Source: Nonomuraea rubra | GTDB lineage: Bacteria; Actinomycetota; Actinomycetes; Streptosporangiales; Streptosporangiaceae | Assembly: GCF_014207985.1 (NCBI RefSeq) | Contig: NZ_JACHMI010000001.1 | Span: 3,393,001 to 3,457,000, forward strand | Reading direction: 5' to 3' | Length of the DNA stretch: 64,000 nt | Shown: piece after piece, positions 51,966 through 64,000 of the stretch | How positions within the stretch are numbered: position 1 is the first letter of the stretch | Layout: the number at the start of each line of letters is the position of its first letter | The notes under the pieces: generated by a model | What the model was told of the DNA's origin: nothing | The model's input: the letters and a program-made list of their open reading frames with translations, nothing else | Database searches by the model: none | Program-made: the position numbers and the translations under genes

Positions 51966-53147
51966 GTGGAGTACCTGGTCGGCGTGGCCGTCGTCGCGGT
52001 GCTCGTCGGCGTGCCCTCGATCGTGTTGTGGCGGGTCATGCGGGGCCGCCGCGAGCTGGGCACCAGCCCGGCGGAGCGGGCCACGTTCGAGACCCTGCAC
52101 ACCGCCTCGCTCGCCGGGCCGCCGCTGCGGGCCGGGCTGACCGCCGACGGCGCCGAGCGCGCCTCGCGGCACCTGCGCGCGCTGCTCGGGTCGGCCGCGC
52201 TGGCGATCACCGACGTCGAGCGGCTGCTCGTGTACGACGGCGAGGGCGACGACCATCACGCCGAGCAGGCGTTCGAGCACGCGGCGGCCACCCTGAAGGA
52301 CGGCCGCACGCAGGTGCTGACCATCGACTGCGACCTGCTCGAATGCCCCATCAGGCACGCCGTCGTGGTGCCGCTGACCACCGACGACCGCGTCGTGGGC
52401 GCGCTGGCCGCCTACGGGCAGAACGCCTCGGCGGGGCTGGTCAGGGCCGCGCAGGAGGTGGCCGGATGGGTGGACTCGCAGCTGGAGCTGGCCGAGCTGG
52501 ACCGCTCGCGCACGCTGCTCATGGAGGCGGAGGTGCGGGCGCTGCGCGCGCAGATCTCCCCGCACTTCATCTACAACTCGCTCACCACCATCGCCTCGTT
52601 CGTGCGCACCGACCCCGAGCGGGCCAGGGAGCTGCTGCTGGAGTTCGCCGACTTCACCCGCTACTCCTTCCGGCGGCACGGCGAGTTCACCACGCTGGCC
52701 GAGGAACTGCGCTCCATCGACCGCTACCTGATCCTGGAGCGGGCCAGGTTCGGCGACCAGCTCCAGGTGACGCTGCGCATCGCGCCCGAGGTGCTGCCGG
52801 TGGCGGTGCCGTTCCTGTGCCTGCAGCCGCTGGTGGAGAACGCCGTGCGGCACGGCCTGGAGAGCAAGGACGGCGTCGGCCGCATCACGATCATCGCCGA
52901 GGACGCCGGCGCCGAGTGCCGCATCAGCGTCGAGGACGACGGCCTCGGCATGGACCCCGACAGGCTGCGCCGGATCCTCGCAGGTGAGATCACTCCCGCG
53001 GGCGGCGTCGGGCTGGCGAACGTGGACGAGCGGCTGCGCCAGGTGTACGGCGACGAGTACGGTCTGGTCGTCGAAACGGCCAGCGGCGCGGGCACCAAGG
53101 TCAACATCAGATTGCCGAAATATCACCCAGGCGTCTCCGCCCGTTGA
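51966..53147 (+). CDS. LytS-type sensor histidine kinase
   Basis: The 393-residue kinase has one N-terminal TM (about 1-22: YLVGVAVVAVLVGVPSIVLW), a GAF-like middle (45-180) with two Cys near CDLLECPIRHA, a His_kinase domain with phospho-His near 200 in QISPHFIYNSLTTIASFVRT and an ATPase domain with LQPLVENAVRHGLE. This is the LytS/BtsS group, here with a single TM instead of 5TM. It is followed 34 bases later by the cognate LytTR regulator. The GAF-like region with Cys suggests a small-molecule or redox signal. Confidence 0.93.
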   Translation: MEYLVGVAVVAVLVGVPSIVLWRVMRGRRELGTSPAERATFETLHTASLAGPPLRAGLTADGAERASRHLRALLGSAALAITDVERLLVYDGEGDDHHAEQAFEHAAATLKDGRTQVLTIDCDLLECPIRHAVVVPLTTDDRVVGALAAYGQNASAGLVRAAQEVAGWVDSQLELAELDRSRTLLMEAEVRALRAQISPHFIYNSLTTIASFVRTDPERARELLLEFADFTRYSFRRHGEFTTLAEELRSIDRYLILERARFGDQLQVTLRIAPEVLPVAVPFLCLQPLVENAVRHGLESKDGVGRITIIAEDAGAECRISVEDDGLGMDPDRLRRILAGEITPAGGVGLANVDERLRQVYGDEYGLVVETASGAGTKVNIRLPKYHPGVSAR

Positions 53148-53180
53148 CCTCGATCTTTGTTGTCGGTTTTATCACTGTCT

Positions 53181-53930
53181 ATGGCACAACTCCGGGTACT
53201 CGCGGTAGATGACGAGCTGCCCGCCCTCGAAGACCTGTCGTACCTGCTGCGCGCCGATCCCCGCATCGGCGAGGTGGTCACCGCCAGGGACGGCGCGGCG
53301 GCGCTGCGGCTGCTCGACCGCGCCATCGCCGACGGGCGGCCGATCGACGCCGTGTTCCTCGACATCAGGATGCGCGGGCTGGACGGCGTGGTGCTCGGGC
53401 GGCTGCTGTCGCAGTTCGCGAACCCGCCGAGGGTGGTGTTCGTGACCGCGTACGAGGAGCACGCGGTGGACGCGTTCGAGATCAAGGCCGAGGACTACCT
53501 GCTCAAGCCCGTCCGCCCCGAGCGGCTGGCGGAGGCGATCAGGCGGGTGGCGGTCTCCGCCGACGTGCCGGCGGAGGGCGGTGAGAGCGACACGATCCCG
53601 GTCGAGCTGGGCGGGGTGACCCGCTTCGTCTCCAGCGCCGACGTCATGTACGTGGAGGCGCACGGCGACTACGCGCGCCTGCACACGGCCGCGGGCAGCC
53701 ACCTGGTGCGCATTCCGCTGGCCACGCTGGAGGAGCGGTGGGCGTCGGCGGGGTTCGTCCGGGTGCACCGCAGCCACCTGGTGGCGGTCAAGCACATCGA
53801 GGAGCTGCACATCGACTCGGGCAAGTGCAGCGTCCGGGTGGGGGACACCGAGATCCCGGTCAGCCGGCGGCACACGCGCGAGCTGCGCGACCTGCTGGTG
53901 CGGCGGGCCAGGAAGGGCAGGCAGGAATGA
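53181..53930 (+). CDS. LytTR-family response regulator
   Basis: This 249-residue protein has a receiver domain (Asp61 in AVFLDIRMRGLDG, Lys109 in YLLKPVRPE) and a C-terminal LytTR DNA-binding domain (about 145-245: VMYVEAHGDYARLHTAAGSH, RVHRSHLVAVKHIEEL). The ATG at 53181 is chosen because REC begins three residues later. It pairs with the LytS kinase and overlaps the DUF485-like gene by 4 bases, so it probably controls the symporter that follows. Confidence 0.95.
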   Translation: MAQLRVLAVDDELPALEDLSYLLRADPRIGEVVTARDGAAALRLLDRAIADGRPIDAVFLDIRMRGLDGVVLGRLLSQFANPPRVVFVTAYEEHAVDAFEIKAEDYLLKPVRPERLAEAIRRVAVSADVPAEGGESDTIPVELGGVTRFVSSADVMYVEAHGDYARLHTAAGSHLVRIPLATLEERWASAGFVRVHRSHLVAVKHIEELHIDSGKCSVRVGDTEIPVSRRHTRELRDLLVRRARKGRQE

Positions 53931-54328
53931 GCGCCGAGCAGCCGCGTCCGGCGCGACGCTCGCCCCATCCCCGCCGCGTCGCCGTCACCAGCCCGCGCAC
54001 CGCCGCCGCCCGGCGCCCCCGCTACCCCGCGACCCGGGAGATCGACGAGCAGACCCGGCTCGGCGAGGTCTACATGCACTCCCTGCTGCGCACCCAGTTC
54101 AGGCTGGCCCTGTTCGTCTGCACGGTGCTGGCGTGCGTGGTGGGCGGGCTGCCGCTGCTGTTCCTGCTCATCCCCGAGCTGCGCGAGGTGCACCTGCTCG
54201 GCGTGCCGCTCCCGTGGGCGGTGCTCGCCGGCCTCATCTACCCGGCCTTCGTCATCGGCGCCTGGCTCTACGTCCGCCAGGCCGAGCGCAACGAGCGGCA
54301 CTTCGCCGAGCTGGTCGAGCGCCGGTGA
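53927..54328 (+). CDS. DUF485-like two-helix membrane protein
   Basis: This 133-residue protein has an Arg/Pro-rich N-terminus (1-45), a conserved segment EVYMHSLLRTQFRLALFVCT and two TM helices (about 62-85 and 96-118). It resembles the DUF485/YjcH proteins that accompany acetate permease ActP. It overlaps the LytTR regulator gene and precedes the symporter by 37 bases, which supports this reading. Confidence 0.85.
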   Translation: MSAEQPRPARRSPHPRRVAVTSPRTAAARRPRYPATREIDEQTRLGEVYMHSLLRTQFRLALFVCTVLACVVGGLPLLFLLIPELREVHLLGVPLPWAVLAGLIYPAFVIGAWLYVRQAERNERHFAELVERR

Positions 54329-54365
54329 GCGGGCACCGGGCACGGCGTGACGCGGGGCCGGTCGC

Positions 54366-55853
54366 ATGAGCCTGGCGGCTGTGCTGGTCGTGGTGGTCGC
54401 GGCCGTGCTCATCGGGGCGTTCGGGATCAGGTTCTCGCGGACCACGTCCGACTTCTACGTGGCCTCCCGCACGGTCAGCCCGCTCTGGAACGCCTCGGCC
54501 ATCGGCGGCGAGTACCTGTCGGCGGCCTCCTTCCTCGGCGTCGCCGGGCTGATCCTGTCCTTCGGCGTGGACATGTTGTGGCTGCCCGTGGGCTGGACCG
54601 GCGGGTACCTGGTGCTGCTGGTGCTGGTCTCGGCGCCGCTGCGCCGGTCGGGGGCGTACACGCTGCCCGACTTCGCCGAGGCCAGGCTGGAGTCGATGAC
54701 CGTGCGGCGCACCGCGAGCGTGCTGGTCGTGCTGATCGGCTGGCTCTACCTCATGCCGCAGTTCCAGAGCGCGGGCCTGGTGCTGCGCACGATCACCGGC
54801 GCGCCCGTGTGGGTGGGCGGCCTGCTGGTCGCGGTCGTCGTGGCGGTGAACGTGCTGTCGGGCGGGATGCGGTCGATCACGTTCGTGCAGGCGTTCCAGT
54901 ACTGGCTCAAGCTGACGGCGCTGGCGGTGCCGCTGGTGTTCCTGCTGATGGCCTGGCAGGCCGACGGGGCGCCCAACGTCGGCGCGGCGGACGCGGCCAC
55001 CTGGCAGGTGCCGCTGGCCGGGGGCAAGGAGTACGGGCTGTACTCGACGTACTCGCTGATCCTGGCCACGTTCCTGGGCACGATGGGGCTGCCGCACGTG
55101 CTCGTCCGCTTCTACACCAACCCCGACGGGCGGGCCGCCCGCCGTACGACGCTGGTGGTGCTGTCGCTGCTCGGGGCGTTCTACCTGCTGCCCGCCGTGT
55201 ACGGGTGGCTGGGCCGGATGTACACGCCCGAGCTCGTCCGCACGGACACCGTCGTGCTGACCCTGCCGTCCCGCATGATCGGCGGCACCCTCGGCGACCT
55301 GCTGACGGCGCTGGTCACCGCGGGCGCGTTCGCCGCGTTCCTGTCCACCTCCTCGGGCCTGACCGTGTCCGTGGCGGGGGTGATCGCCCAGGACCTGCTC
55401 AAGGGCTCGGTGCGCTCGTTCAGGATCGCCACGCTGATGGCGGTGGCGGTGCCGCTGGCCCTGGCGCTGTGGGCGCGGGCGCTGCCGGTGGCGGACGTGG
55501 TGGGGCTGGCGTTCGCGGTGGCGGCCTCGTCGTTCTGCCCGCTGCTGGTGCTGGGCATCTGGTGGCGGCGGCTGTCCACGACGGGGGCGCTGGCGGGGCT
55601 GTTCGTGGGAGGGGGGCTGGCCTGCGCCGCCGTGCTCGTCACGATCGTGGCGGGGCCGCAGCGGGGGCTGGCGGGGGCGCTGCTGGCCCAGCCGGCGGCG
55701 TGGACGGTGCCGATCGCGTTCACGGTGATGGTGGCGGTGTCCTTCCTGACGCCGCACCGGGTGCCGGCCGGGGTGGCCAGGACCATGGTGAGGCTGCACA
55801 CGCCGGAGGACCTCGACCTCGACCGCGGTGACTGGCGTCCCCGCTCGTCCTAG
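54366..55853 (+). CDS. Sodium:solute symporter (ActP/MctC-like)
   Basis: This 495-residue SSS-family transporter has about 13 TM helices. Key stretches are FYVASRTVSPLWNASAIGGE, YLSAASFLGVAGLILSFG and AAFLSTSSGLTVSVAGVIAQ, the last including the Na-binding Ser/Thr region. The context (DUF485-like partner, LytS/LytTR system) parallels acetate/pyruvate monocarboxylate carriers. Which acid it carries cannot be read from sequence. Confidence 0.92.
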   Translation: MSLAAVLVVVVAAVLIGAFGIRFSRTTSDFYVASRTVSPLWNASAIGGEYLSAASFLGVAGLILSFGVDMLWLPVGWTGGYLVLLVLVSAPLRRSGAYTLPDFAEARLESMTVRRTASVLVVLIGWLYLMPQFQSAGLVLRTITGAPVWVGGLLVAVVVAVNVLSGGMRSITFVQAFQYWLKLTALAVPLVFLLMAWQADGAPNVGAADAATWQVPLAGGKEYGLYSTYSLILATFLGTMGLPHVLVRFYTNPDGRAARRTTLVVLSLLGAFYLLPAVYGWLGRMYTPELVRTDTVVLTLPSRMIGGTLGDLLTALVTAGAFAAFLSTSSGLTVSVAGVIAQDLLKGSVRSFRIATLMAVAVPLALALWARALPVADVVGLAFAVAASSFCPLLVLGIWWRRLSTTGALAGLFVGGGLACAAVLVTIVAGPQRGLAGALLAQPAAWTVPIAFTVMVAVSFLTPHRVPAGVARTMVRLHTPEDLDLDRGDWRPRSS

Positions 55854-56377
55854 CTCATCACCCGCTCGTACGCCGCCACCAGGTCGTCCATGGCCAGCAC
55901 CGGGCCCTCGGGGTCCTTGGCGGCGTCGTCCCAGCGGCGCAGGGCGACCGCGTCGGGCGCCCACGCGTGGGCCTCGAAGGCGGCCACCTCCTCCGGGGAC
56001 ATCGGGCCGCCCTGGACGCGCAGCGAGCGCACCGAGACCGGGCTCAGCGTGTCGTGGTAGGCGGGGTCCACGGCGACGAGGTAGCGCTTGGCGGCCACGT
56101 GCCGCTCGATGGCCCAGGCCGAGCGCTCGGTGAGGTGGTCGCGGGCGAAGGCGGCGCCGGCCTGCTCGTGGGGCATGCCGCGGTAGCGGGTGGCGACCTC
56201 GCGGGCGCGGCCCACGTCGTGGAAGGCGGCGGCCAGGACCAGCTCGTCGTCCGCGCCCGCCGCGACGGCGTGGGCGGCGGCCTGGAGGGCGTGGGTGCGC
56301 TGGTCGACGACCTCGCCGCCGTACGGCACGCCGGCGAGGGCGTCGAAGAGGTCGTGCAGCTCATCCCGAGAAAGCAT
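55850..56377 (-). CDS. PhnZ-family HD-domain oxygenase (phosphonate degradation)
   Basis: This 175-residue HD-domain protein matches PhnZ (mixed-valent diiron oxygenase cleaving the C-P bond of 2-amino-1-hydroxyethylphosphonate) in its diagnostic segments: YGGEVVDQRTHALQ (Tyr19, Glu22, His29), AAFHDVGRA (His53, Asp54), PHEQAGAAF (His70), ERHVAAKRYL (His93, Lys97), SLRVQGGPMSPEE and RWDDAAK (Asp150). All six expected iron ligands are present. One oddity: PhnZ has HDxGH, this protein HDVGR, so Arg57 replaces a His that I recall as contacting the phosphonate. AAGGGG precedes the ATG. It is divergent from the C-P lyase operon. Confidence 0.85.
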   Translation of the reverse strand: MLSRDELHDLFDALAGVPYGGEVVDQRTHALQAAAHAVAAGADDELVLAAAFHDVGRAREVATRYRGMPHEQAGAAFARDHLTERSAWAIERHVAAKRYLVAVDPAYHDTLSPVSVRSLRVQGGPMSPEEVAAFEAHAWAPDAVALRRWDDAAKDPEGPVLAMDDLVAAYERVMS

Positions 56378-56607
56378 GATTTATCCCCTTTTAGCGGGTT
56401 TGGTGCACGCATGATGACCTCCCTCCCGTGACCGGACGGTGGCCGCACGGTGAAGGTGCACCGGCCGGAACGTTACGGGCGGGTGGGTTCGCCCGGAGTT
56501 AACCCCCCGGTTCGTGCAGGGTCAGGCACGACTGGCCTGCTCCTCATTGTCGGCGACGACCGTGGCCGGCCAGACGTGCTACCTGCGAAAAGCTCGGAGA
56601 ACCGACT
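56378..56607. promoter_or_regulatory. Divergent phosphonate promoter region with PHO-box-like repeats
   Basis: This 230-base region separates the PhnZ-like gene and phnD. At 56487-56508 two adjacent 11-base units, gttcgcccgga and gttaacccccc, are followed by a further gttcg at 56510. Actinobacterial PhoP boxes are 11-base direct repeats starting GTTCACC, so this looks like a PHO box about 100 bases upstream of phnD. Phosphate-starvation control of both transcripts would fit. The repeats are degenerate, so the call is moderate. Confidence 0.5.
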
Positions 56608-57531
56608 GTGAAACGTACTCTGACCGCCCTGGCCATGATCGGCGCGCTCGCGGCGGCGGGCTGCTCCTCCGCCAGCGGCAGCAGCGCGGGCGACGGCGAC
56701 GTGCTGCGCTTCGCCGCCGTGCCGACCGAGCAGAACATCGACCCCACCGCCGAGTACAAGGACATCATCGCGCTCATCGAGAAGAACACCGGCAGGAAGG
56801 TGGAGTTCGTCCGCTCCACCGACTACAACGCCGTCATCGAGGGCATGGTGTCCGGCAAGATCGACCTGGCGGAGTTCGGGCCGCTGTCGTACGTGCTCGC
56901 CAGGAGCAACGGCGCGAAGATCACGCCGATCGCGTCCATGGTCGAGAAGGGCGGCAAGCCCACGTACCAGAGCTACGGCATCGTCCCCGCCGGCAGCACG
57001 ATCACCGGCATCGACGGGTTCAAGGGCGCCAAGGTCTGCTTCGTCGACCCCGGCTCCACCTCCGGCTACCTCTTCCCGAGCCAGGGCCTGCTGAGCGCCG
57101 GCATCGATCCCAAGACCGGGGTGCGGCCCGTCATGGCGGGCGGGCACGACAACTCCGTGCTGTCGGTCGCCTCGGGCAAGTGCGAGGCCGGCTTCTCCGA
57201 GAGCGGCATGGTGGACCACATCCTCATCGGCAAGGGCAAGCTCAAGGCCGGCGACGTGAAGATCGTGTGGAGGTCGGAGCCCATCCCCATGTCGCCGGTC
57301 GCCATGCGCGACGACCTGCCCGCCGACCTCAGGACCAAGCTCCAGCAGACCTACACCGAGGATGCGAACAAGGACCGCATGGTGCAGCTCGGCATCTGCG
57401 CGTCGGTGGACGCCTGCGCGGTGACCAACGACAACTCCATCTGGAGCTGGCAGGCCGTCACCGACGCGACCTTCGACCCCGTACGCGAGGTGTGCGCCGC
57501 CACGAAGAACGAGAAGTGCTCCAAGGCATGA
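56608..57531 (+). CDS. phnD: Phosphonate ABC importer, substrate-binding lipoprotein
   Basis: This 307-residue protein has a lipobox signal (GALAAAGC, Cys19) and the PhnD fold: RFAAVPTEQNIDPTAEYKDI, VEFVRSTDYNAVIEGMVSGK, DLAEFGPLSYVLA and CFVDPGSTSGYLFPSQGL. The Ser/Thr-rich STSG loop is where the phosphonate group binds in the family. The GTG start has GGAG in range. It overlaps phnC by 4 bases. It could import phosphonates or phosphite. Confidence 0.94.
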   Translation: MKRTLTALAMIGALAAAGCSSASGSSAGDGDVLRFAAVPTEQNIDPTAEYKDIIALIEKNTGRKVEFVRSTDYNAVIEGMVSGKIDLAEFGPLSYVLARSNGAKITPIASMVEKGGKPTYQSYGIVPAGSTITGIDGFKGAKVCFVDPGSTSGYLFPSQGLLSAGIDPKTGVRPVMAGGHDNSVLSVASGKCEAGFSESGMVDHILIGKGKLKAGDVKIVWRSEPIPMSPVAMRDDLPADLRTKLQQTYTEDANKDRMVQLGICASVDACAVTNDNSIWSWQAVTDATFDPVREVCAATKNEKCSKA

Positions 57532-58289
57532 CGGCACCGGTCGTGGAGACGAAGGGGCTGGTCAAGTCCTTCGGCGACGTCACCGCGTGCGCCGGGATCG
57601 ACCTGACCGTGGCCCGCGGGGAGATCGTCGCCCTGCTCGGGCCGTCCGGGTCCGGCAAGTCCACGCTGCTGCGGCACCTCAACGGGCTGACCCGGCCGGA
57701 CGCGGGCCAGGTCCGCGTGCTCGGCGCCGACGTCGCGACCGTCAAGGGCGCCGAGCTGCGGGCGCTGCGGCGGCGGGTCGGCGTGGTCTTCCAGCAGTTC
57801 AACCTCGTCGGACGGCTGACGGTGATGGAGAACGTGCTGCACGGGGCGCTCGGCCGGGTCCGCGGCCCCCGGTACGGCATCGTGACCTGGCCCAGGTCCG
57901 TACGCGCCGAGGCGTTCGAGCACCTGGACCGGGTGGGCCTGGCGGACCGGGCCTACCAGCGGGCCGGGAGCCTGTCCGGCGGGCAGCAGCAGCGCGTCGC
58001 CATCGCGCGGGCGCTGCTGCAGCGACCCGAGCTGATGCTCGCCGACGAGCCCGTGGCCTCGCTCGACCCCGAGACCGCCGCGTCCGTGATGGACCTGCTG
58101 GTGCGCGTGTGCAGGGAGGACGGGCTGACCATGGTGTGCACGCTGCACCAGATCGAGCTGGCGCTGGAGTGGACCCGGCGGGTGGTGGGGCTGCGGCTGG
58201 GGGAGATCCGGCTGGACGAGCCCACCGAGCTGCTGGACGCCGTACGGCTGCGCGGGCTGTACCTGTCCGACCCCGTGACGGTGCCATGA
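57528..58289 (+). CDS. phnC: Phosphonate ABC importer, ATP-binding protein
   Basis: This 253-residue ATPase has Walker A LLGPSGSGKSTLLRHLNGL, Q-loop VVFQQFNLV, signature LSGGQQQRVAIARAL, Walker B MLADEPVASLDPE and a switch His in CTLHQIELAL. It starts at the ATG overlapping the phnD stop and overlaps phnE by 4 bases. Confidence 0.95.
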   Translation: MTAPVVETKGLVKSFGDVTACAGIDLTVARGEIVALLGPSGSGKSTLLRHLNGLTRPDAGQVRVLGADVATVKGAELRALRRRVGVVFQQFNLVGRLTVMENVLHGALGRVRGPRYGIVTWPRSVRAEAFEHLDRVGLADRAYQRAGSLSGGQQQRVAIARALLQRPELMLADEPVASLDPETAASVMDLLVRVCREDGLTMVCTLHQIELALEWTRRVVGLRLGEIRLDEPTELLDAVRLRGLYLSDPVTVP

Positions 58290-60001
58290 TCCGGCTCGCT
58301 CAGGAGGAGACGACCTCGACCTCGACCTCGACCTCGACCTCGACCTTGACCGCGGCTCGCGGGGGAGGGGCGGGCGGGGACTGGCCGGGGCCGCCGCGCA
58401 CCGGGCGGCGGGTGGCCGCGTGGGCGTTTCCGATCATGTTCGTGGCGCTCGGAGTGCTCGCGCTCGGCCACCTCGGCGTCGGCGTCGGCGGGCTGGTCAG
58501 CGGGTTCGGCGAGGTCGTCGCGCTGCTGGCCAGGGCCGTGCCGCCGACGCTCGGCGACCCCGCCACCACGTTCGCGCACGTGCTCGACACGCTCTGGATG
58601 GCCATCGCGGGGACCGCGCTGGCCACGGTGCTGGCCGCCGTCCTGGGGGTGCTCGCCGCCTCGAAGGGCCGGGAGAGGGCCGGCGGGCCGGGCGCCTGGC
58701 GGAAGGTCGTGCGGCCGGCGGCGCTGGCCGTGATCGTGGCGTGCCGGGCCGTCCCCGATGTGGTGTTCGCCGTCTTCTTCGTGGCCGCGATCGGCATCGG
58801 CCCGCTGCCCGGCGTGCTGGCGCTCGGCCTGCACTCCGTGGGCATGCTGGGCAAGCTGTTCGCCGAGGCGGTCGAGCAGGCGGACACGGGGGTGCGCGAG
58901 GCCGTGGCCGGCACCGGCGCGGGGCCGGGGCAGCGGCTCCTGGCCGGCGTGCTGCCGCAGGTGGCGCCCGCCTGGGTGGCCGCCGTCCTGTACCGGCTCG
59001 ACATCAACTTCCGCGGCTCCGTGCTGCTCGGCGCCGTCGGCGCGGGCGGCATCGGGCTGGACCTCAAGACGGCGTTCGGGTTCACCGACTACCGCGAGGC
59101 CGTCGGGATCGCGCTGGTCACCGTGGCCGTCGTGCTGCTCGTCGAGGCGGTCTCCGTGGGCCTGCGCGGGCAGTTGCTCGGCGCCGGGCGGGCCAAGGCC
59201 GTACCTCCCGTGCGGGGTGTCCGCGTGCCGTGGACCCGCGGCAGGACCGCCGCGCACCTGGCCGGATGGGGGGCGATCGTGCTGGCGGCGGTGGCGTTCT
59301 GGCGGGTCGGCGCGAGCCCGGCGGCGCTGGCCGACGCCGCCGCCGGATCGGTGCGCGCGCTCGGCGAGTTCTTCCCGCCGGACTTCGGGCCGATCGCCGG
59401 CTCGCTCGGCGAGGGCCTGCTGGAGACGGTCGCGATCGCGCTCGGCGCCACCTTCCTCGGCACCCTGGCGGGCATCCCGCTCGGCCTGACCGCCGCCCGC
59501 GCCGTGGCGCCCGGCGACGGCGTGCGCCTGACCGCCCGTGTCCTGCTCGTCGGCCTGCGTTCCATCCCCGACCTGCTGCTGGTGCTGGTGTTCGTGGCCG
59601 CGTTCGGGCTGATGGACGGGCCCGTCGCGGGAACGCTGGCGCTGGCCGTGTTCACGGCCGCCCTGGTCGCCAAGCTCGTCGCCGACGACGCCGAGGAACT
59701 GCGCGCAGGGCCGCGCGAGGCCGTGCGCTCGGCCGGGGCGGGGCCGGGCCAGGAGCTGACCGTGGCCGTGCTCGGCCAGCTCACGCCCCGGCTCACGGCC
59801 ACCACCCTGTACGCGCTCGACGTCAACCTGCGGGCCTTCTTCGTCCTCGGCATCGTCGGGGCCGGCGAGCTCGGCTTCGCGCTGAGCCAGCAGATCAGGG
59901 CTCTCGGGTACGACGTGGTGACGGCCATCGTGCTGCCGGTGTTCCTGCTGGTCCTGGCCGTGGAGGCGGTCTCGGCCCGGCTGCGATCCGTCCTGCGTTG
60001 A
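58286..60001 (+). CDS. phnE: Phosphonate ABC importer, double permease (PhnE-PhnE fusion)
   Basis: This 571-residue protein contains two complete BPD_transp_1 permease modules: residues about 45-290 (EAA-type loop VREAVAGTGAGPGQRLLAGVLPQ) and 320-570 (PREAVRSAGAGPGQELTVAVLGQ). E. coli PhnE is one module of about 260 residues, so the channel dimer is covalently fused here. An N-terminal STSTSTST tract comes from a hexanucleotide repeat. It overlaps phnC by 4 bases. Confidence 0.93.
   Translation: MIRLAQEETTSTSTSTSTSTLTAARGGGAGGDWPGPPRTGRRVAAWAFPIMFVALGVLALGHLGVGVGGLVSGFGEVVALLARAVPPTLGDPATTFAHVLDTLWMAIAGTALATVLAAVLGVLAASKGRERAGGPGAWRKVVRPAALAVIVACRAVPDVVFAVFFVAAIGIGPLPGVLALGLHSVGMLGKLFAEAVEQADTGVREAVAGTGAGPGQRLLAGVLPQVAPAWVAAVLYRLDINFRGSVLLGAVGAGGIGLDLKTAFGFTDYREAVGIALVTVAVVLLVEAVSVGLRGQLLGAGRAKAVPPVRGVRVPWTRGRTAAHLAGWGAIVLAAVAFWRVGASPAALADAAAGSVRALGEFFPPDFGPIAGSLGEGLLETVAIALGATFLGTLAGIPLGLTAARAVAPGDGVRLTARVLLVGLRSIPDLLLVLVFVAAFGLMDGPVAGTLALAVFTAALVAKLVADDAEELRAGPREAVRSAGAGPGQELTVAVLGQLTPRLTATTLYALDVNLRAFFVLGIVGAGELGFALSQQIRALGYDVVTAIVLPVFLLVLAVEAVSARLRSVLR
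58311..58346 (+). repeat. Hexanucleotide repeat (CGACCT)6
   Basis: Six perfect CGACCT copies sit near the 5' end of phnE and encode an alternating Ser-Thr tract. The 6-base unit keeps the frame, so copy number can vary without loss of the protein. Confidence 0.9.
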
Positions 60002-60064
60002 TGACCTGTGCGCTCATGCGGCGTCGCCCGCCGTTCACCTCCCGGTCAGAAAGCTCGCCGAGGC

Positions 60065-60082
60065 TGCTTGTCATGACAAGCA
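60065..60082. promoter_or_regulatory. 18-base perfect palindrome over the phnF start codon
   Basis: TGCTTGTCATGACAAGCA is a perfect palindrome whose centre falls in the phnF ATG (60073-60075). GntR/HutC regulators bind such dyads, so PhnF probably binds its own gene start. It lies in the 71-base gap after phnE and could repress phnF and the downstream phnGHIJK. Confidence 0.75.
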
Positions 60083-60792
60083 CGCAGCGCTACCTGGAGA
60101 TGGCCGACATCCTGGAGGCGGAGCTGGCCCACGTGCCCGTGGGCGCGCAGGTGCCGAGCGAGCACGTGCTGGCCGAGCGCTTCCACGTCAGCAGGCCCGC
60201 CGCCCGCGCGGCCCTGCAGGAGCTGGAGCGGCGGCTGCTGGTGCGCCGCGTCCAGGGTGTCGGCACCTTCAGGCGGGGGCGTGTGGAGTACGTGATCTCC
60301 GCGCACTTCCCGCCCTCGTTCAGCGAGACCGTGCGCCTGGCCGGCGCCGAGCCGGCGTCGCGGCTGGTGAGCTGCGGCGTGCGGCGCGCGGTCGAGCAGG
60401 AACGGGCCAGGCTGCAGCTCCAGCCCGGCGCGGCCGTGTGGACGGTCGAGCGGGTGTTCAGCGTGAACGGCGAGGTCGCCGCGTACGCCACCAGCGTCCT
60501 GCCCCGGCGCCCCCTGCTGAACCTGGACAGGGAGCTCGGCGACGAGGTCTCCCTGCACAGGGTGCTGCGCCGCCGCTACGGGCTCACCGTCGTCCGCGCC
60601 CGCTACCGGATCAGCCTCGACGTGCCCCCGCAGGGCATCGCCGAGCACCTGACCGGCGGCAGCCGCGGCCCCGTCTGGCTGGCCGAGAGCGTGAACCGCG
60701 CCGCGGGCGGCCCGTACGTCGAGTACGCCCGCACGTACCTGCGGCCCGACGTGCTCGACGTCACCTTCGAGATCGAAGAGGAAACCCATTGA
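60073..60792 (+). CDS. phnF: GntR/HutC-family regulator of phosphonate genes
   Basis: This 239-residue protein has an N-terminal winged HTH (IPSEHVLAERF-like: AQVPSEHVLAERFHVSRPA, then LQELERRLLVRRVQGVGTF) and a C-terminal UTRA ligand domain (from about 85). The ATG at 60073 is chosen since the HTH begins 4 residues later; the frame is open far upstream. Position between phnE and phnG is the typical PhnF location. It is followed by phnG with a TTGA overlap. Confidence 0.93.
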   Translation: MTSTQRYLEMADILEAELAHVPVGAQVPSEHVLAERFHVSRPAARAALQELERRLLVRRVQGVGTFRRGRVEYVISAHFPPSFSETVRLAGAEPASRLVSCGVRRAVEQERARLQLQPGAAVWTVERVFSVNGEVAAYATSVLPRRPLLNLDRELGDEVSLHRVLRRRYGLTVVRARYRISLDVPPQGIAEHLTGGSRGPVWLAESVNRAAGGPYVEYARTYLRPDVLDVTFEIEEETH

Positions 60793-61229
60793 ACGACCTG
60801 ATCAGTAGGGAGGAGCGGGCCGGGCTGCTGGCCTCCGCGACTCCCGGAGAGCTGCTGCCCCTCGCCGAGCGCCTGCTCCAGTCCGGCGAGCTGGGCGAGC
60901 CGACCGTGCTGCGCCGGCCAGAGGTCGGGATGGTGATGCTCACCGTGCGCGAGCCGGTGGCCGAGGAGCGCTTCCACCTGGGCGAGGTGCTCGTCACCTC
61001 GTGCACCGTCGAGGTGGCGGGCGCCGCCGGGTGGTGCATGCGGGGCGGCGACGACCGCGTGGCCGCCCTCGCCGCCGCCCTCCTGGACGCCGCGGCGGAG
61101 GCCGGGCTGCCGGCCGCCGGCGACGTGCACGCCCTGTGCGCGGCCGTGGCCGAGCGGCGGGCCAGGGAGGACGCCGCCGAGTGGGCCGAGGTGTCGATGA
61201 CCCGCGTGGCCTTCGAGGAGCTGACATGA
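60789..61229 (+). CDS. phnG: C-P lyase core subunit PhnG
   Basis: This 146-residue subunit of the C-P lyase core complex (PhnGHIJ) has family features: REERAGLLASATPGELL, VGMVMLTVREPVAEERFHLG and EVLVTSCTVEVAGAAGWCMR. The start is a TTG overlapping the phnF stop by 4 bases; no ATG or GTG fits. With PhnI, PhnG and PhnH it supports formation of ribose-1-phosphonate triphosphate from phosphonate and ATP. Confidence 0.93.
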   Translation: MNDLISREERAGLLASATPGELLPLAERLLQSGELGEPTVLRRPEVGMVMLTVREPVAEERFHLGEVLVTSCTVEVAGAAGWCMRGGDDRVAALAAALLDAAAEAGLPAAGDVHALCAAVAERRAREDAAEWAEVSMTRVAFEELT

Positions 61230-61897
61230 CCGTCACCGCCGTCCAGGGGATCGGCGTCCACGTCCGCGCGGTGACGCCGACGGCGGCGCAGGCCCAGGCC
61301 GACTTCCGCGCGCTGCTGAACGTGCTGTCCAGGCCGGGCGTGCTCGACGTCGTGGGGCGCGGAGAGGGGCCAGGGCACGGAGAGGGGCGCGGCGAGAGTC
61401 GCGGCGAGGGGCCCGTGGCGCTGGCCGTGGCCGCCGGGCTGGCCGACGTCGAGGTGCCGACCGCCGTGCTGACCGCGCCCGGCGACGAGCACTGGGCGCG
61501 CGCCCTGCACCTGGGGACGTCCGCGCCGCCCGCCCCGCCGGAGCGGGCCCGCATGGTGGTGGCGCTCCGCCCACCGGCCGCGGCCGAGATCGCCGGGCTG
61601 ACCAGGGGTGACGCCATGCACCCCGAGCTCGGGACGCGGCTGGTCGTCGCCGTCGACGGCCTGGGACAGGACTCCGGGAACGTTCCAGGAGCGGTCGTCC
61701 TCACGCTCAGCGGGCCGGGAGTGCCCGGGACGCGGCGGCTGTGCGTCACCGGCCTGCCCCGTGACGTCTTCGAGGCGCTCGCCGCCGCCAACGCCGGCTT
61801 CCCCGCGGGCGTCGACACGTTCCTCGTCGCCCAGGACGGGACCGTGGCCGGGCTGCCGCGCAGCACCCGCATCGAGATCGAGAACGGAGACCACTGA
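61226..61897 (+). CDS. phnH: C-P lyase core subunit PhnH
   Basis: This 223-residue subunit has the PhnH pattern AQADFRALLNVLSRPGVLD, a middle segment GLADVEVPTAVL, and near the end GLPRDVFEALAAANAGFPAGVDTFLV and GLPRSTRI. A Gly/Glu/Arg-rich insert (near residues 50-65) is longer than in E. coli. It overlaps phnG by 4 bases and ends 2 bases before phnI. Confidence 0.94.
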   Translation: MTVTAVQGIGVHVRAVTPTAAQAQADFRALLNVLSRPGVLDVVGRGEGPGHGEGRGESRGEGPVALAVAAGLADVEVPTAVLTAPGDEHWARALHLGTSAPPAPPERARMVVALRPPAAAEIAGLTRGDAMHPELGTRLVVAVDGLGQDSGNVPGAVVLTLSGPGVPGTRRLCVTGLPRDVFEALAAANAGFPAGVDTFLVAQDGTVAGLPRSTRIEIENGDH

Positions 61898-61899
61898 CC

Positions 61900-63018
61900 A
61901 TGGGTTACTCAGGTGCCAGCGGCGGCCACGAGGCCATCCTGGCCGCCGAGCGGCTCGTCGAACGCCACCGCTACGGCGGCTCCAGCGACTGGCTGGCCAT
62001 CGACCAGATCACCGGCCGGCTGCGGCTGGCCGTGGACCGGATCATGGGCGAGGGCGGCCTGTGGGCCCCCGAGCTGGCGGCCAGGGCGCTGCGCCAGTCG
62101 GAGGGCGACGTGCAGGAGGCGGCGCAGCTCATCAGGGCGCACCGCTCGACGCTGCCCCGCGTGGCCTACTCCGAGCCGGTGCACGCCGACGAGCTGCGCG
62201 TCTCGCGCCGCATCTCGCCCGCCTTCCGCAACCCGCCCGGCAGCCAGCTGCTCGGCCGCACCCTCGACTACGTGGGCCGCCTGCTCGACCTGATGCCGGA
62301 GGAGCAGGCCAGGGCCCGCGCCGAGGAACCCGCCGAGCCCCCGGCGAACGGCCACGCGAACGGCCACGCGAACGGTCACGGGCACGGGCACGCCGGGGGT
62401 GAGGACCCGCGCCGGCCGCCGCGCCTGCTCGGCCTGCTGCGTTCCATGGGCATGCTGGTCGAGAGGCGTACGGACGGCGACCCCGACCCGTACGACATCA
62501 CCCGCTCGCCCGTACGCCCGGGAGTCCCCCGCTCGGCCCGCCTGACCGCGATGGCCAGAGCGGAGACGGGCGCCCTGGTGCACCTGTGGTACTCCAACAC
62601 CTTCCAGCCGGGCAGGCACAACCACGAGTTCCCCGGCGAGGTACGCCACGGCACTCTCCCCGTACGGGTCAGCCATCCTCTGACCGGCAACCCGGTCACG
62701 GTCGCGGAGGTGCGGGTCACCGAGGTGGAGACGATCGACGACCTCGACCGCGCCGAGGAGGACCGTAGCCGCCTCGACCTGGGCTACGGCATGTGCTTCG
62801 GCCACAACGAGCGCAAGGCCATCGCCATGGCCGGCCTCGACCTGCTGGTGCACCGCGACGGCGGCCGTACGGAGCTGGAGCAGGAGGTGCTGCTGACCCT
62901 CGACGGGATCGAGGCGTCCGGCTTCCTGGAGCACCTCAAGCTGCCCCACTACGTGGACTTCAGGTCGGTGCTCGACCGCAAGCGCGCGGTGCGCGCGGCC
63001 ATGGAGGAGGCCCGATGA
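61900..63018 (+). CDS. phnI: C-P lyase core subunit PhnI (purine nucleosidase subunit)
   Basis: This 372-residue subunit starts GYSGASGGHEAILAAERLV. It contains DQITGRLRLAVDRIMGEGGLWAPELAARAL, VSHPLTGNPVTVAEVRVTEV and DLGYGMCFGHNERKAIAMAG, the conserved C-terminal region. An insert with ANGH repeats and HGHGH (near 150-165) adds a His-rich loop absent from E. coli PhnI. PhnI transfers ribose triphosphate to phosphonate, releasing adenine. It overlaps phnJ by 4 bases. Confidence 0.94.
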   Translation: MGYSGASGGHEAILAAERLVERHRYGGSSDWLAIDQITGRLRLAVDRIMGEGGLWAPELAARALRQSEGDVQEAAQLIRAHRSTLPRVAYSEPVHADELRVSRRISPAFRNPPGSQLLGRTLDYVGRLLDLMPEEQARARAEEPAEPPANGHANGHANGHGHGHAGGEDPRRPPRLLGLLRSMGMLVERRTDGDPDPYDITRSPVRPGVPRSARLTAMARAETGALVHLWYSNTFQPGRHNHEFPGEVRHGTLPVRVSHPLTGNPVTVAEVRVTEVETIDDLDRAEEDRSRLDLGYGMCFGHNERKAIAMAGLDLLVHRDGGRTELEQEVLLTLDGIEASGFLEHLKLPHYVDFRSVLDRKRAVRAAMEEAR

Positions 63019-63872
63019 GGACGATCACCGACCTGGCCGGGGACGGCGCCCCCAGGGGCATCTTCGACGAGCTGTCCAAGCGCGAGGTCCGCAGGGCCGC
63101 GCTCACAGCCGTGGCCGTGCCGGGCTACCAGGTGCCGTTCGGCTCCCGCGAGATGCCGGTGGCGCGCGGCTGGGGCTCCGGCGGCCTCCAGGTGACGCTG
63201 GCCCTCGTCGGCCCCGAGGACCGGCTCAAGGTCATCGACCAGGGCGAGGACGGCGGCGTGAACGCCTCCAACCTGCGCCGCCTGGTCGTCGGCCACGTCG
63301 GCTGCGAGGAGGAGACCGACACGCGGCAGGCCAGCCTGATCCAGTCCAGGCACCGCATCCCCGAGACGCCGCTGCGCGCCGACCAGACGCTCGTGCTGCA
63401 GGTGCCGGTGCCGGAGCCGCTGCGCGCCGTCGAGCACGACGTGCGCGAGCAGCGCAGGATGCACGCCGAGGCCGACTATTCGCGCATGTGGGTCGGCCTG
63501 TACGAGGACGTCGTGCGCAACGGCGTCGTCACCAAGACCGCCGGCTACCCCTGCATGGTGAACGGCCGGTACCTGATCTCGCCCACGCCGATCCCCAGGT
63601 TCGACGTGCCGAAGCTGGACAGGACCGAGCACCTGACGCTGTTCGGGGCGGGCAGGGAGAAGCGGATCTACGCGGTGCCGCCGCACACCGAGGTGGAGCC
63701 GCTGGTGTTCGAGGACATCCCGTTCGAGGTCGAGCACACGCCCGGCGCCGCCTGCCGGCACTGCGGGTGCGAGGAGTCGTACCTGGTGGAGGTGCCGGCG
63801 ACGGACGGGTCCGTGACGTGGGTGTGCAGCGACACGGACTTCTGCACGCGTAACAGGGAGAGGGAACGATGA
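63015..63872 (+). CDS. phnJ: C-P lyase radical-SAM catalytic subunit
   Basis: The 285-residue enzyme splits the C-P bond. It keeps the glycyl-radical region AVPGYQVPFGSREMP (Gly37, E. coli Gly32) and the [4Fe-4S] ligands Cys247, Cys250 and Cys271, with the thiyl-radical Cys277 in CSDTDFC. The spacing is like E. coli (241, 244, 266, 272) apart from one fewer residue before the third Cys. An extra Cys252 follows the CxxC pair (CRHCGC). QASLIQSRHRIPETPL and LFGAGREKRIYAVPP are diagnostic. It overlaps phnI and phnK by 4 bases. Confidence 0.97.
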   Translation: MRTITDLAGDGAPRGIFDELSKREVRRAALTAVAVPGYQVPFGSREMPVARGWGSGGLQVTLALVGPEDRLKVIDQGEDGGVNASNLRRLVVGHVGCEEETDTRQASLIQSRHRIPETPLRADQTLVLQVPVPEPLRAVEHDVREQRRMHAEADYSRMWVGLYEDVVRNGVVTKTAGYPCMVNGRYLISPTPIPRFDVPKLDRTEHLTLFGAGREKRIYAVPPHTEVEPLVFEDIPFEVEHTPGAACRHCGCEESYLVEVPATDGSVTWVCSDTDFCTRNRERER

Positions 63873-64000
63873 GCTGGGCGTTGAAGGTGGACGGGCTCGG
63901 CAGGGTCTACGGCGACCAGGACCCGCGCTCGCTGCCCGGCACCGGGCCCGAGCACGGCACCTCGGTCTCGCCCGCGACCGGGGCCGTGGTGGCCGCCTGG
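63869..64000 (+). CDS. phnK: C-P lyase ABC-type protein PhnK, N-terminal fragment
   Basis: Only the first 44 codons lie in the window (MSWALKVDGLGRVYGDQD...); the Walker A motif is still to come. Position after phnJ and the VDGLGRVYG start of an ABC ATPase identify PhnK, the ATP-binding protein that docks on the PhnGHIJ core. The gene and the rest of the operon continue past the right edge. Confidence 0.85.
   Translation, partial: MSWALKVDGLGRVYGDQDPRSLPGTGPEHGTSVSPATGAVVAAW

Follow-up and report, generated by a model that had tools for sequence, protein, structure and literature searches.

In a 64-kb stretch of the 12.9-Mb Nonomuraea rubra genome (the window, meaning the whole stretch of DNA analysed), a gene for an HD-domain protein (55850-56377, minus strand) stands divergent from a C-P lyase operon that opens with phnD (56608, plus strand), the two starts being separated by 230 bases. 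We propose that the HD protein is probably an accessory, substrate-specific C-P oxygenase of the C-P lyase regulon, acting on a phosphonate that may well be alpha-hydroxylated already at import. A sequence-only reading of the window had described this pairing of a PhnZ-family HD gene with a phnDCE-F-GHIJK operon; gene order, gene-by-gene profile matches and the PhnJ cysteines confirm it, and its interpretation is partly supported overall.

Family and active-site residues of the HD protein

Judged by profiles and predicted fold, the HD protein is a member of the PhnZ/TmpB-type HD-domain family, as the sequence-only reading had supposed. A match from N. rubra shares 97% identity with it. Its best family profile is TIGR03276 (Phn-HD; 166.1 bits, near full-length, curated cut-off 214.6), with 109 bits against the TmpB model and 100 bits against the GmPhnZ model, all three scores lying below the curated cut-offs. 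PhnZ (E 9.5e-24) and TmpB (E 3.5e-21) lead the PDB search and are by a wide margin the best matches in both sequence and structure, and the predicted fold is of the PhnZ/TmpB type; MIOX comes next as a fold, the match not being close and the HD protein carrying a YxxE loop. The predicted diiron ligands (H29, H53, D54, H70, H93 and D150, an H...HD...H...H...D set) and the YxxE loop (Y19-G-G-E22, with Y19 and E22 invariant) are unchanged across the 25 rows of alignment A1, which holds the window protein and 24 relatives picked from 120 listed. Such a loop has been described for phosphonate oxygenases (PMC8177086).

The place of PhnZ His62, the histidine expected of PhnZ/TmpB-type proteins, is occupied here by Arg57. 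At this position (place 62), an 83-row alignment has His in 70 rows, Arg in 12 and Lys in one, and Arg is found in 25/25 A1 rows as well as in a further protein from locus L153 (genome G375, below). Elsewhere in the pocket, the equivalents of PhnZ Glu27, Lys108, Ser126, Gln133 and Arg158 are unaltered in the Arg/Lys rows of the 83-row alignment. Residue roles of PhnZ and TmpB were drawn from reviews, and we take MIOX Lys127 to correspond to place 62 of the HD motif. PMC7916636 reports a contact between PhnZ His62 and the hydroxyl of the substrate, and PMC2584100 describes MIOX Lys127 as part of a lid above the substrate. The sequence-only reading had the HD enzyme handle hydroxylated 2-aminoethylphosphonate as PhnZ does, and offered a different substrate as its alternative; with the alpha-hydroxyl contact residue replaced, the former is not supported and the doubt about the substrate was right.

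Search for a partner hydroxylase

Eight TauD/PhyH queries had no match in the window, from which the PhnY-type hydroxylase had already been reported absent, nor in an 18-kb rightward extension of the contig (locus L003), where it had been thought it might lie. The genome holds four TauD and seven PhyH matches. Ten of these 11 candidates were scanned (L047 was left out), and none is recognisable as PhnY or TmpA: scores peaked at 37 bits for TmpA (cut-off 400) and at 48 bits for GmPhnY (cut-off 500), and three candidates compared with the PDB were not convincing as either. The same models give likely relatives 434 bits (a TmpA-TmpB fusion in L004, TmpA model) and 284 and 261 bits (the GmPhnY-like proteins of L080 and L164). 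Note that this search covered TauD and PhyH only, other oxygenase families not being searched, and that no NCBIfam model was met for the PhnY* of HF130.

Hydroxylases do accompany other HD relatives. In the actinobacterial loci L080 (7469-8967) and L164 (3681-5826), phnM and phnF flank a GmPhnY-like hydroxylase gene that is directly followed by a His-type HD gene, likely a complete oxidative pair inside a phn cluster; the L080 cluster also holds phnG and phnI-phnL, and L164 is one contig of genome G303, with phnJ sitting on another. A TmpA-like stretch is paired with the HD gene in five loci (L072, L093, L105, L106 and L113). HD motifs occur within frames of 563-758 codons in 7/150 Streptosporangiales genomes; L004:358-2043, the only one scanned, is a single-chain TmpA-TmpB fusion (TmpA 434 bits, Phn-HD 223 bits, both above cut-off), while for L005-L010 only the frame length and the HD motif were noted. 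The queries found a hydroxylase in 0/12 Arg/Lys loci, some of them short, nor did they find one in the window with its extension or in L153. Proteobacterial C-P lyase loci with His-type HD genes also have no hydroxylase detectable by these queries.

The C-P lyase operon and the end of its pathway

The run phnD-C-E-F-G-H-I-J-K fills the window up to its right edge, which cuts phnK, and the extension continues through phnL, phnM and an IMPase-family gene to a LacI-type regulator on the opposite strand. The features are as follows.

55850..56377, minus strand: predicted PhnZ-like HD-domain oxygenase, 175 aa (family profiles, PDB match, ligand residues)
56378..56607, no strand: divergent HD gene/phnD intergenic region, its middle part conserved in Nonomuraea jiangxiensis
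56487..56508, plus strand: PHO-box-like pair of 11-nt direct repeats (17/22 against a PHO-box consensus)
56608..57531, plus strand: phnD, phosphonate/phosphate ABC transporter binding lipoprotein (TIGR01098 208 bits, above cut-off; TIGR03431 PhnD 198 bits, below cut-off)
57528..58289, plus strand: phnC, transporter ATPase (named from position and an ABC_tran match)
58286..60001, plus strand: phnE, two-domain permease, 571 aa (two permease stretches)
60073..60792, plus strand: phnF, GntR/UTRA regulator (GntR and UTRA domains; the gene may start earlier, at 60001)
60798..61229, plus strand: phnG (TIGR03293 93 bits, above cut-off)
61226..61897, plus strand: phnH (TIGR03292 100 bits, above cut-off)
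61900..63018, plus strand: phnI (PF05861 333 bits)
63015..63872, plus strand: phnJ, radical-SAM C-P lyase subunit (alignment with E. coli PhnJ)
63869..64000, plus strand: phnK, only its start inside the window, ending at ~64705
beyond the window, in the 18-kb extension: phnL, ending at ~65451
beyond the window, in the 18-kb extension: phnM, ending at ~66623
beyond the window, L003:4620-5504 (window ~66620-67504): IMPase-family gene
54366-55853: sodium/solute symporter, convergent with the HD gene

Window and extension together thus hold the C-P lyase core, phnG-phnM, with a PhnJ that shares 52% identity with its E. coli counterpart and has cysteines aligned at all four cysteine positions of the latter. 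Of the phn genes that the sequence-only reading proposed to look for, phnL and phnM were found and phnN was not; neither phnN nor phnP, which the E. coli operon has, lies in the cluster, and the best matches genome-wide are 46 bits for PhnN (cut-off 156) and 27 bits for PhnP (cut-off 272). Replacement of phnN and phnP is known from other C-P lyase operons (PMC10574752).

The IMPase-family protein may complete the C-P lyase pathway. Its gene lies 3' of phnM in the actinobacterial C-P lyase clusters L003, L049, L050, L051, L054, L055, L057, L142, L144 and L162, in none of which phnN or phnP was seen, although the L051 genome has a PhnN match and a DUF1045 match on a separate contig. The exceptions are L056 and L161, which have no IMPase-family gene, and L052, which has one without phnM. 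PhnP is below cut-off in 32/32 HD-bearing genomes, N. rubra among them, and in 21/21 genomes of a second set (three shared with the first), 14 of which have no HD gene; since PhnP is below cut-off in these 14 too, its absence is not tied to the HD protein. The highest sub-threshold PhnP scores come from G234 and G544 (no HD gene; 115-122 bits) and from G161 and G165 (HD gene present; 100-111 bits), and these middling matches may represent distant PhnP proteins.

On the other side of the HD gene, 51966-55853 of the window encodes a histidine kinase, a LytTR response regulator and the symporter. The same symporter adjoins the HD gene in N. jiangxiensis and in genome G013, where the Nonomuraea HD gene is partial (L159; truncated by the contig start, perhaps frame-broken) and the genome has no PhnJ match.

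Where HD relatives occur

We examined 80 HD loci, the best 80 of 114 confirmed clade matches in named genomes and not a random sample. PhnJ is encoded inside the locus in 26 of them (Nonomuraea, Streptomyces, Mycobacterium, Eremiobacterota, Acidithiobacillus, alphaproteobacteria, Polaromonas and others) and elsewhere in the genome for 6/50 of the other loci (L053, L061, L067, L074, L111 and L112), the genome search not having been run for L050, L054, L064 and L088. Among 43 loci classed as other (no C-P lyase in the locus), hpnW is present in 24, a phnX-like gene in 17 and hpnZ in 16, at more than 80 bits, these families being named from one representative each; phnX itself is counted as a neighbour of the HD gene in 8/43. 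Within a plasmid collection, 28 records have an HD relative, all below 60% identity, and 215 have PhnI.

Several arrangements bear on what the HD gene is for. Clusters of the form phnDCEFGHIJKLM-IMPase occur without an HD gene (L142 and L144); both G002 and G004 have the same IMPase-bearing operon, TIGR03276 finds nothing in G004 and gives just two weak matches in G002 (37 and 21 bits), and PhnP stays below cut-off in both genomes. The C-P lyase pathway therefore does not need the HD protein there. Among actinobacterial genomes drawn regardless of HD, 4/18 with PhnJ have an HD match above 100 bits, N. rubra being one of the four, and in G129, counted as lacking an HD gene, phnJ lies on a contig of 4.4 kb. 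In Actinopolymorpha pittospori (L053), the HD gene closes a separate phnD-C-E-HD run; two PhnJ genes elsewhere in the genome, in two C-P lyase clusters, rule out a phnDCE-HD system in a genome without C-P lyase, and the run stands apart from C-P lyase. At L153:4336-6952 (G375), an Arg-type HD gene shares a C-P lyase cluster with phnX and hpnW, a set of three candidate C-P-breaking routes at one place. The Streptomyces locus L052 retains IMPase and HD genes, with phnD and phnE as pieces only, and its genome gives no match to PhnJ.

On a tree of the HD proteins, the C-P lyase label requires six changes, at least four of them by starred branches, against a mean of ~26 after shuffling; the label is thus clustered on the tree, yet has been gained or lost several times. 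The tree excludes the place-62 column; support is weak at the deepest forks, and PhnZ sits on a long branch whose position is uncertain. Labels derive from genome-level finds for L053, L061, L067, L074, L111 and L112 and from partial clusters for L050, L054 and L064; L088 was labelled negative without a genome search, and L052 was excluded from the count.

Intergenic region and regulation

The sequence-only reading took the HD gene and the operon to share a promoter region, which suggested to it a common importer and a common signal. The divergent arrangement stands for Nonomuraea, where the window and L048 are the two loci with a whole HD gene, and a PHO-box-like repeat pair lies between the genes (56487-56508; 17/22, the highest plus-strand score in the window, equalled by one minus-strand site). 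The corresponding N. jiangxiensis site scores 16/22, and by eye there may be a weaker third 11-nt unit at 56509-56519. The repeat is no more than suggestive of phosphate control. The divergent arrangement was seen only in Nonomuraea: in Streptomyces and Mycobacterium the HD gene is codirectional and comes directly after phnM or the IMPase-family gene, an order that fits joint control as well. It follows both genes, in the same direction, in L049, L050, L051, L055 and L057, and phnM in L056.

Weighing the explanations

We regard an accessory C-P oxygenase with a specific substrate in the C-P lyase regulon as the likeliest account of the locus. We infer that the HD protein would be a mixed-valent diiron oxygenase, induced at low phosphate, that breaks the C-P bond in a single specific phosphonate to yield phosphate and a carboxylate; the substrate would most likely be alpha-hydroxylated already when imported by this PhnDCE, a dedicated hydroxylase would be unnecessary, and the enzyme would work in parallel to C-P lyase, as an accessory to its regulon and not as a step of its pathway. 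An accessory enzyme fits better than a pathway step because of the operons without an HD gene, the Actinopolymorpha run, the G375 cluster and the 4/18 genomes. In favour of the account as a whole also stand the PhnZ and TmpB matches, the invariant ligands and loop of A1, and the hpnW and phnX neighbours of HD genes in the loci classed as other. Precedents are also in print: PMC8154272 takes the presence of PhnZ homologues within phnWX and phnWAY clusters to indicate that (R)-1-hydroxy-2-aminoethylphosphonate requires separate processing or salvage, and TIGR03276 proteins adjoin phosphonatase genes without PhnY* (PMC11203657).

Several observations pull the other way. The Arg at the place of His62 makes an alpha-hydroxylated substrate less than certain. 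The surroundings of 14 Arg/Lys-type genes were seen: PhnJ is encoded in the locus or elsewhere in the genome for 11 of them, L050 and L054 hold parts of phnK-phnM (PhnJ not having been searched for), and only the decayed L052 has none, a distribution that would agree with a role bound to C-P lyase. PhnN and DUF1045/RcsF are both absent from 12/13 Arg/Lys-type genomes, whereas both are present in 17/19 His-type genomes and both absent in 2/19 (Fisher p 5e-6, ignoring kinship; PhnN counted from 136 bits, table compiled manually), a difference that kinship alone may explain. The YxxE loop varies in the wider set (Y to W in 5/83 rows, E to Q or A in 2/83), the curated TIGR03276 cut-off is missed (166 of 214.6 bits), and no activity of any clade member was found reported in the literature searched.

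The Arg-type enzymes could instead be oxygenases for some substrate that is not an alpha-hydroxyphosphonate, the basic residue at place 62 binding a different group; this is an unlikely alternative, under which no hydroxylase is needed because no hydroxylation takes place. It would agree with the uniform Arg of A1 and L153, with the presence of a PhnY-like hydroxylase beside His-type HD genes (L080 and L164) vs. none found beside Arg/Lys-type genes, and with the lid lysine of MIOX, the next fold. However, the pocket is otherwise that of PhnZ, His vs. Arg does not track the hydroxylase in the proteobacterial loci, and a partner could sit outside the shorter Arg/Lys loci. Somewhat more doubtful is the broader claim that Arg-type HD proteins are a new functional class, cleaving C-P (or other C-X) bonds without alpha-hydroxylation in actinobacterial C-P lyase regulons where the IMPase-family protein replaces PhnP/PhnN for the last steps. 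We think it quite improbable that the pair acts like PhnY/PhnZ through an unlinked, highly divergent hydroxylase: the genome's 11 2-oxoglutarate oxygenase matches leave room for one, but the ten scanned score far below the likely relatives that the models detect, an exclusion that is not airtight given the families covered and the missing PhnY* model.

A further proposal, that the HD protein replaces PhnP in hydrolysing 5-phosphoribosyl 1,2-cyclic phosphate as the C-P lyase pathway closes, while the IMPase-family protein replaces PhnN, seems very unlikely. It draws on the sub-threshold PhnP of all 32 HD-bearing genomes and on the absence of PhnN and DUF1045/RcsF from most Arg/Lys-type genomes, but G002 and G004 have the same IMPase-bearing operon without an HD gene (beyond the weak G002 matches) and without PhnP over cut-off, PhnP is equally below cut-off in the second set, HD genes are also found in a phnDCE run separate from C-P lyase and in the company of phnX/hpnW, and the YxxE loop is one described for phosphonate oxygenases. 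This indirect genomic evidence speaks against a PhnP-like function, which we do not favour.

Significance and relation to known systems

PhnZ relatives without a linked hydroxylase are common among the loci examined, and in the literature we found none that is linked to C-P lyase and has an assigned substrate. This locus is a clean case, with one importer, one cluster and a defined substitution of Arg for His at the position where the alpha-hydroxyl is read. Actinobacterial clusters that have a hydroxylase and His, and clusters that have neither, provide natural controls. The locus could reveal whether bacteria supplement C-P lyase with a specific oxygenase in order to use or detoxify a phosphonate that C-P lyase handles poorly. 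The pairing of two C-P-breaking routes as such is already published (PMC9381506); of the His-to-Arg clade and of an IMPase-family gene in C-P lyase operons we found no mention, in a search covering few subscription papers.

Compared with PhnZ (bacterium HF130_AEPn_1; PDB 4MLM/4MLN/4N71), the HD protein has Arg57 in place of His62, stands with C-P lyase, has no PhnY partner that we could find and falls on a different branch of the tree; TmpB (Leisingera caerulea; PDB 6NPA) likewise has His at place 62, and the TmpA of the TmpA-TmpB pair was not found here. The PhnHD/TIGR03276 proteins of Achromobacter phosphonatase clusters (PMC11203657), the best profile match here, are similarly orphan HD oxygenases beside another phosphonate pathway without PhnY*; unlike them, the N. 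rubra protein is below the family cut-off and is linked to C-P lyase and not to phosphonatase, G375 showing both. Among actinobacteria, the Streptomyces and Arthrobacter clusters of PMC7866108 are likewise rare phn clusters, those of Streptomyces said to be without phnO and phnP; some carry phnN, and no HD or IMPase-family gene is mentioned in the available part of that account. C-P lyase operons that contain a specific C-P hydrolase are known from a marine survey (PMC9381506), which gives 21% for the co-occurrence of phnZ with C-P lyase genes and whose available text does not describe the Arg clade; there, as here, two C-P-breaking routes share one operon.

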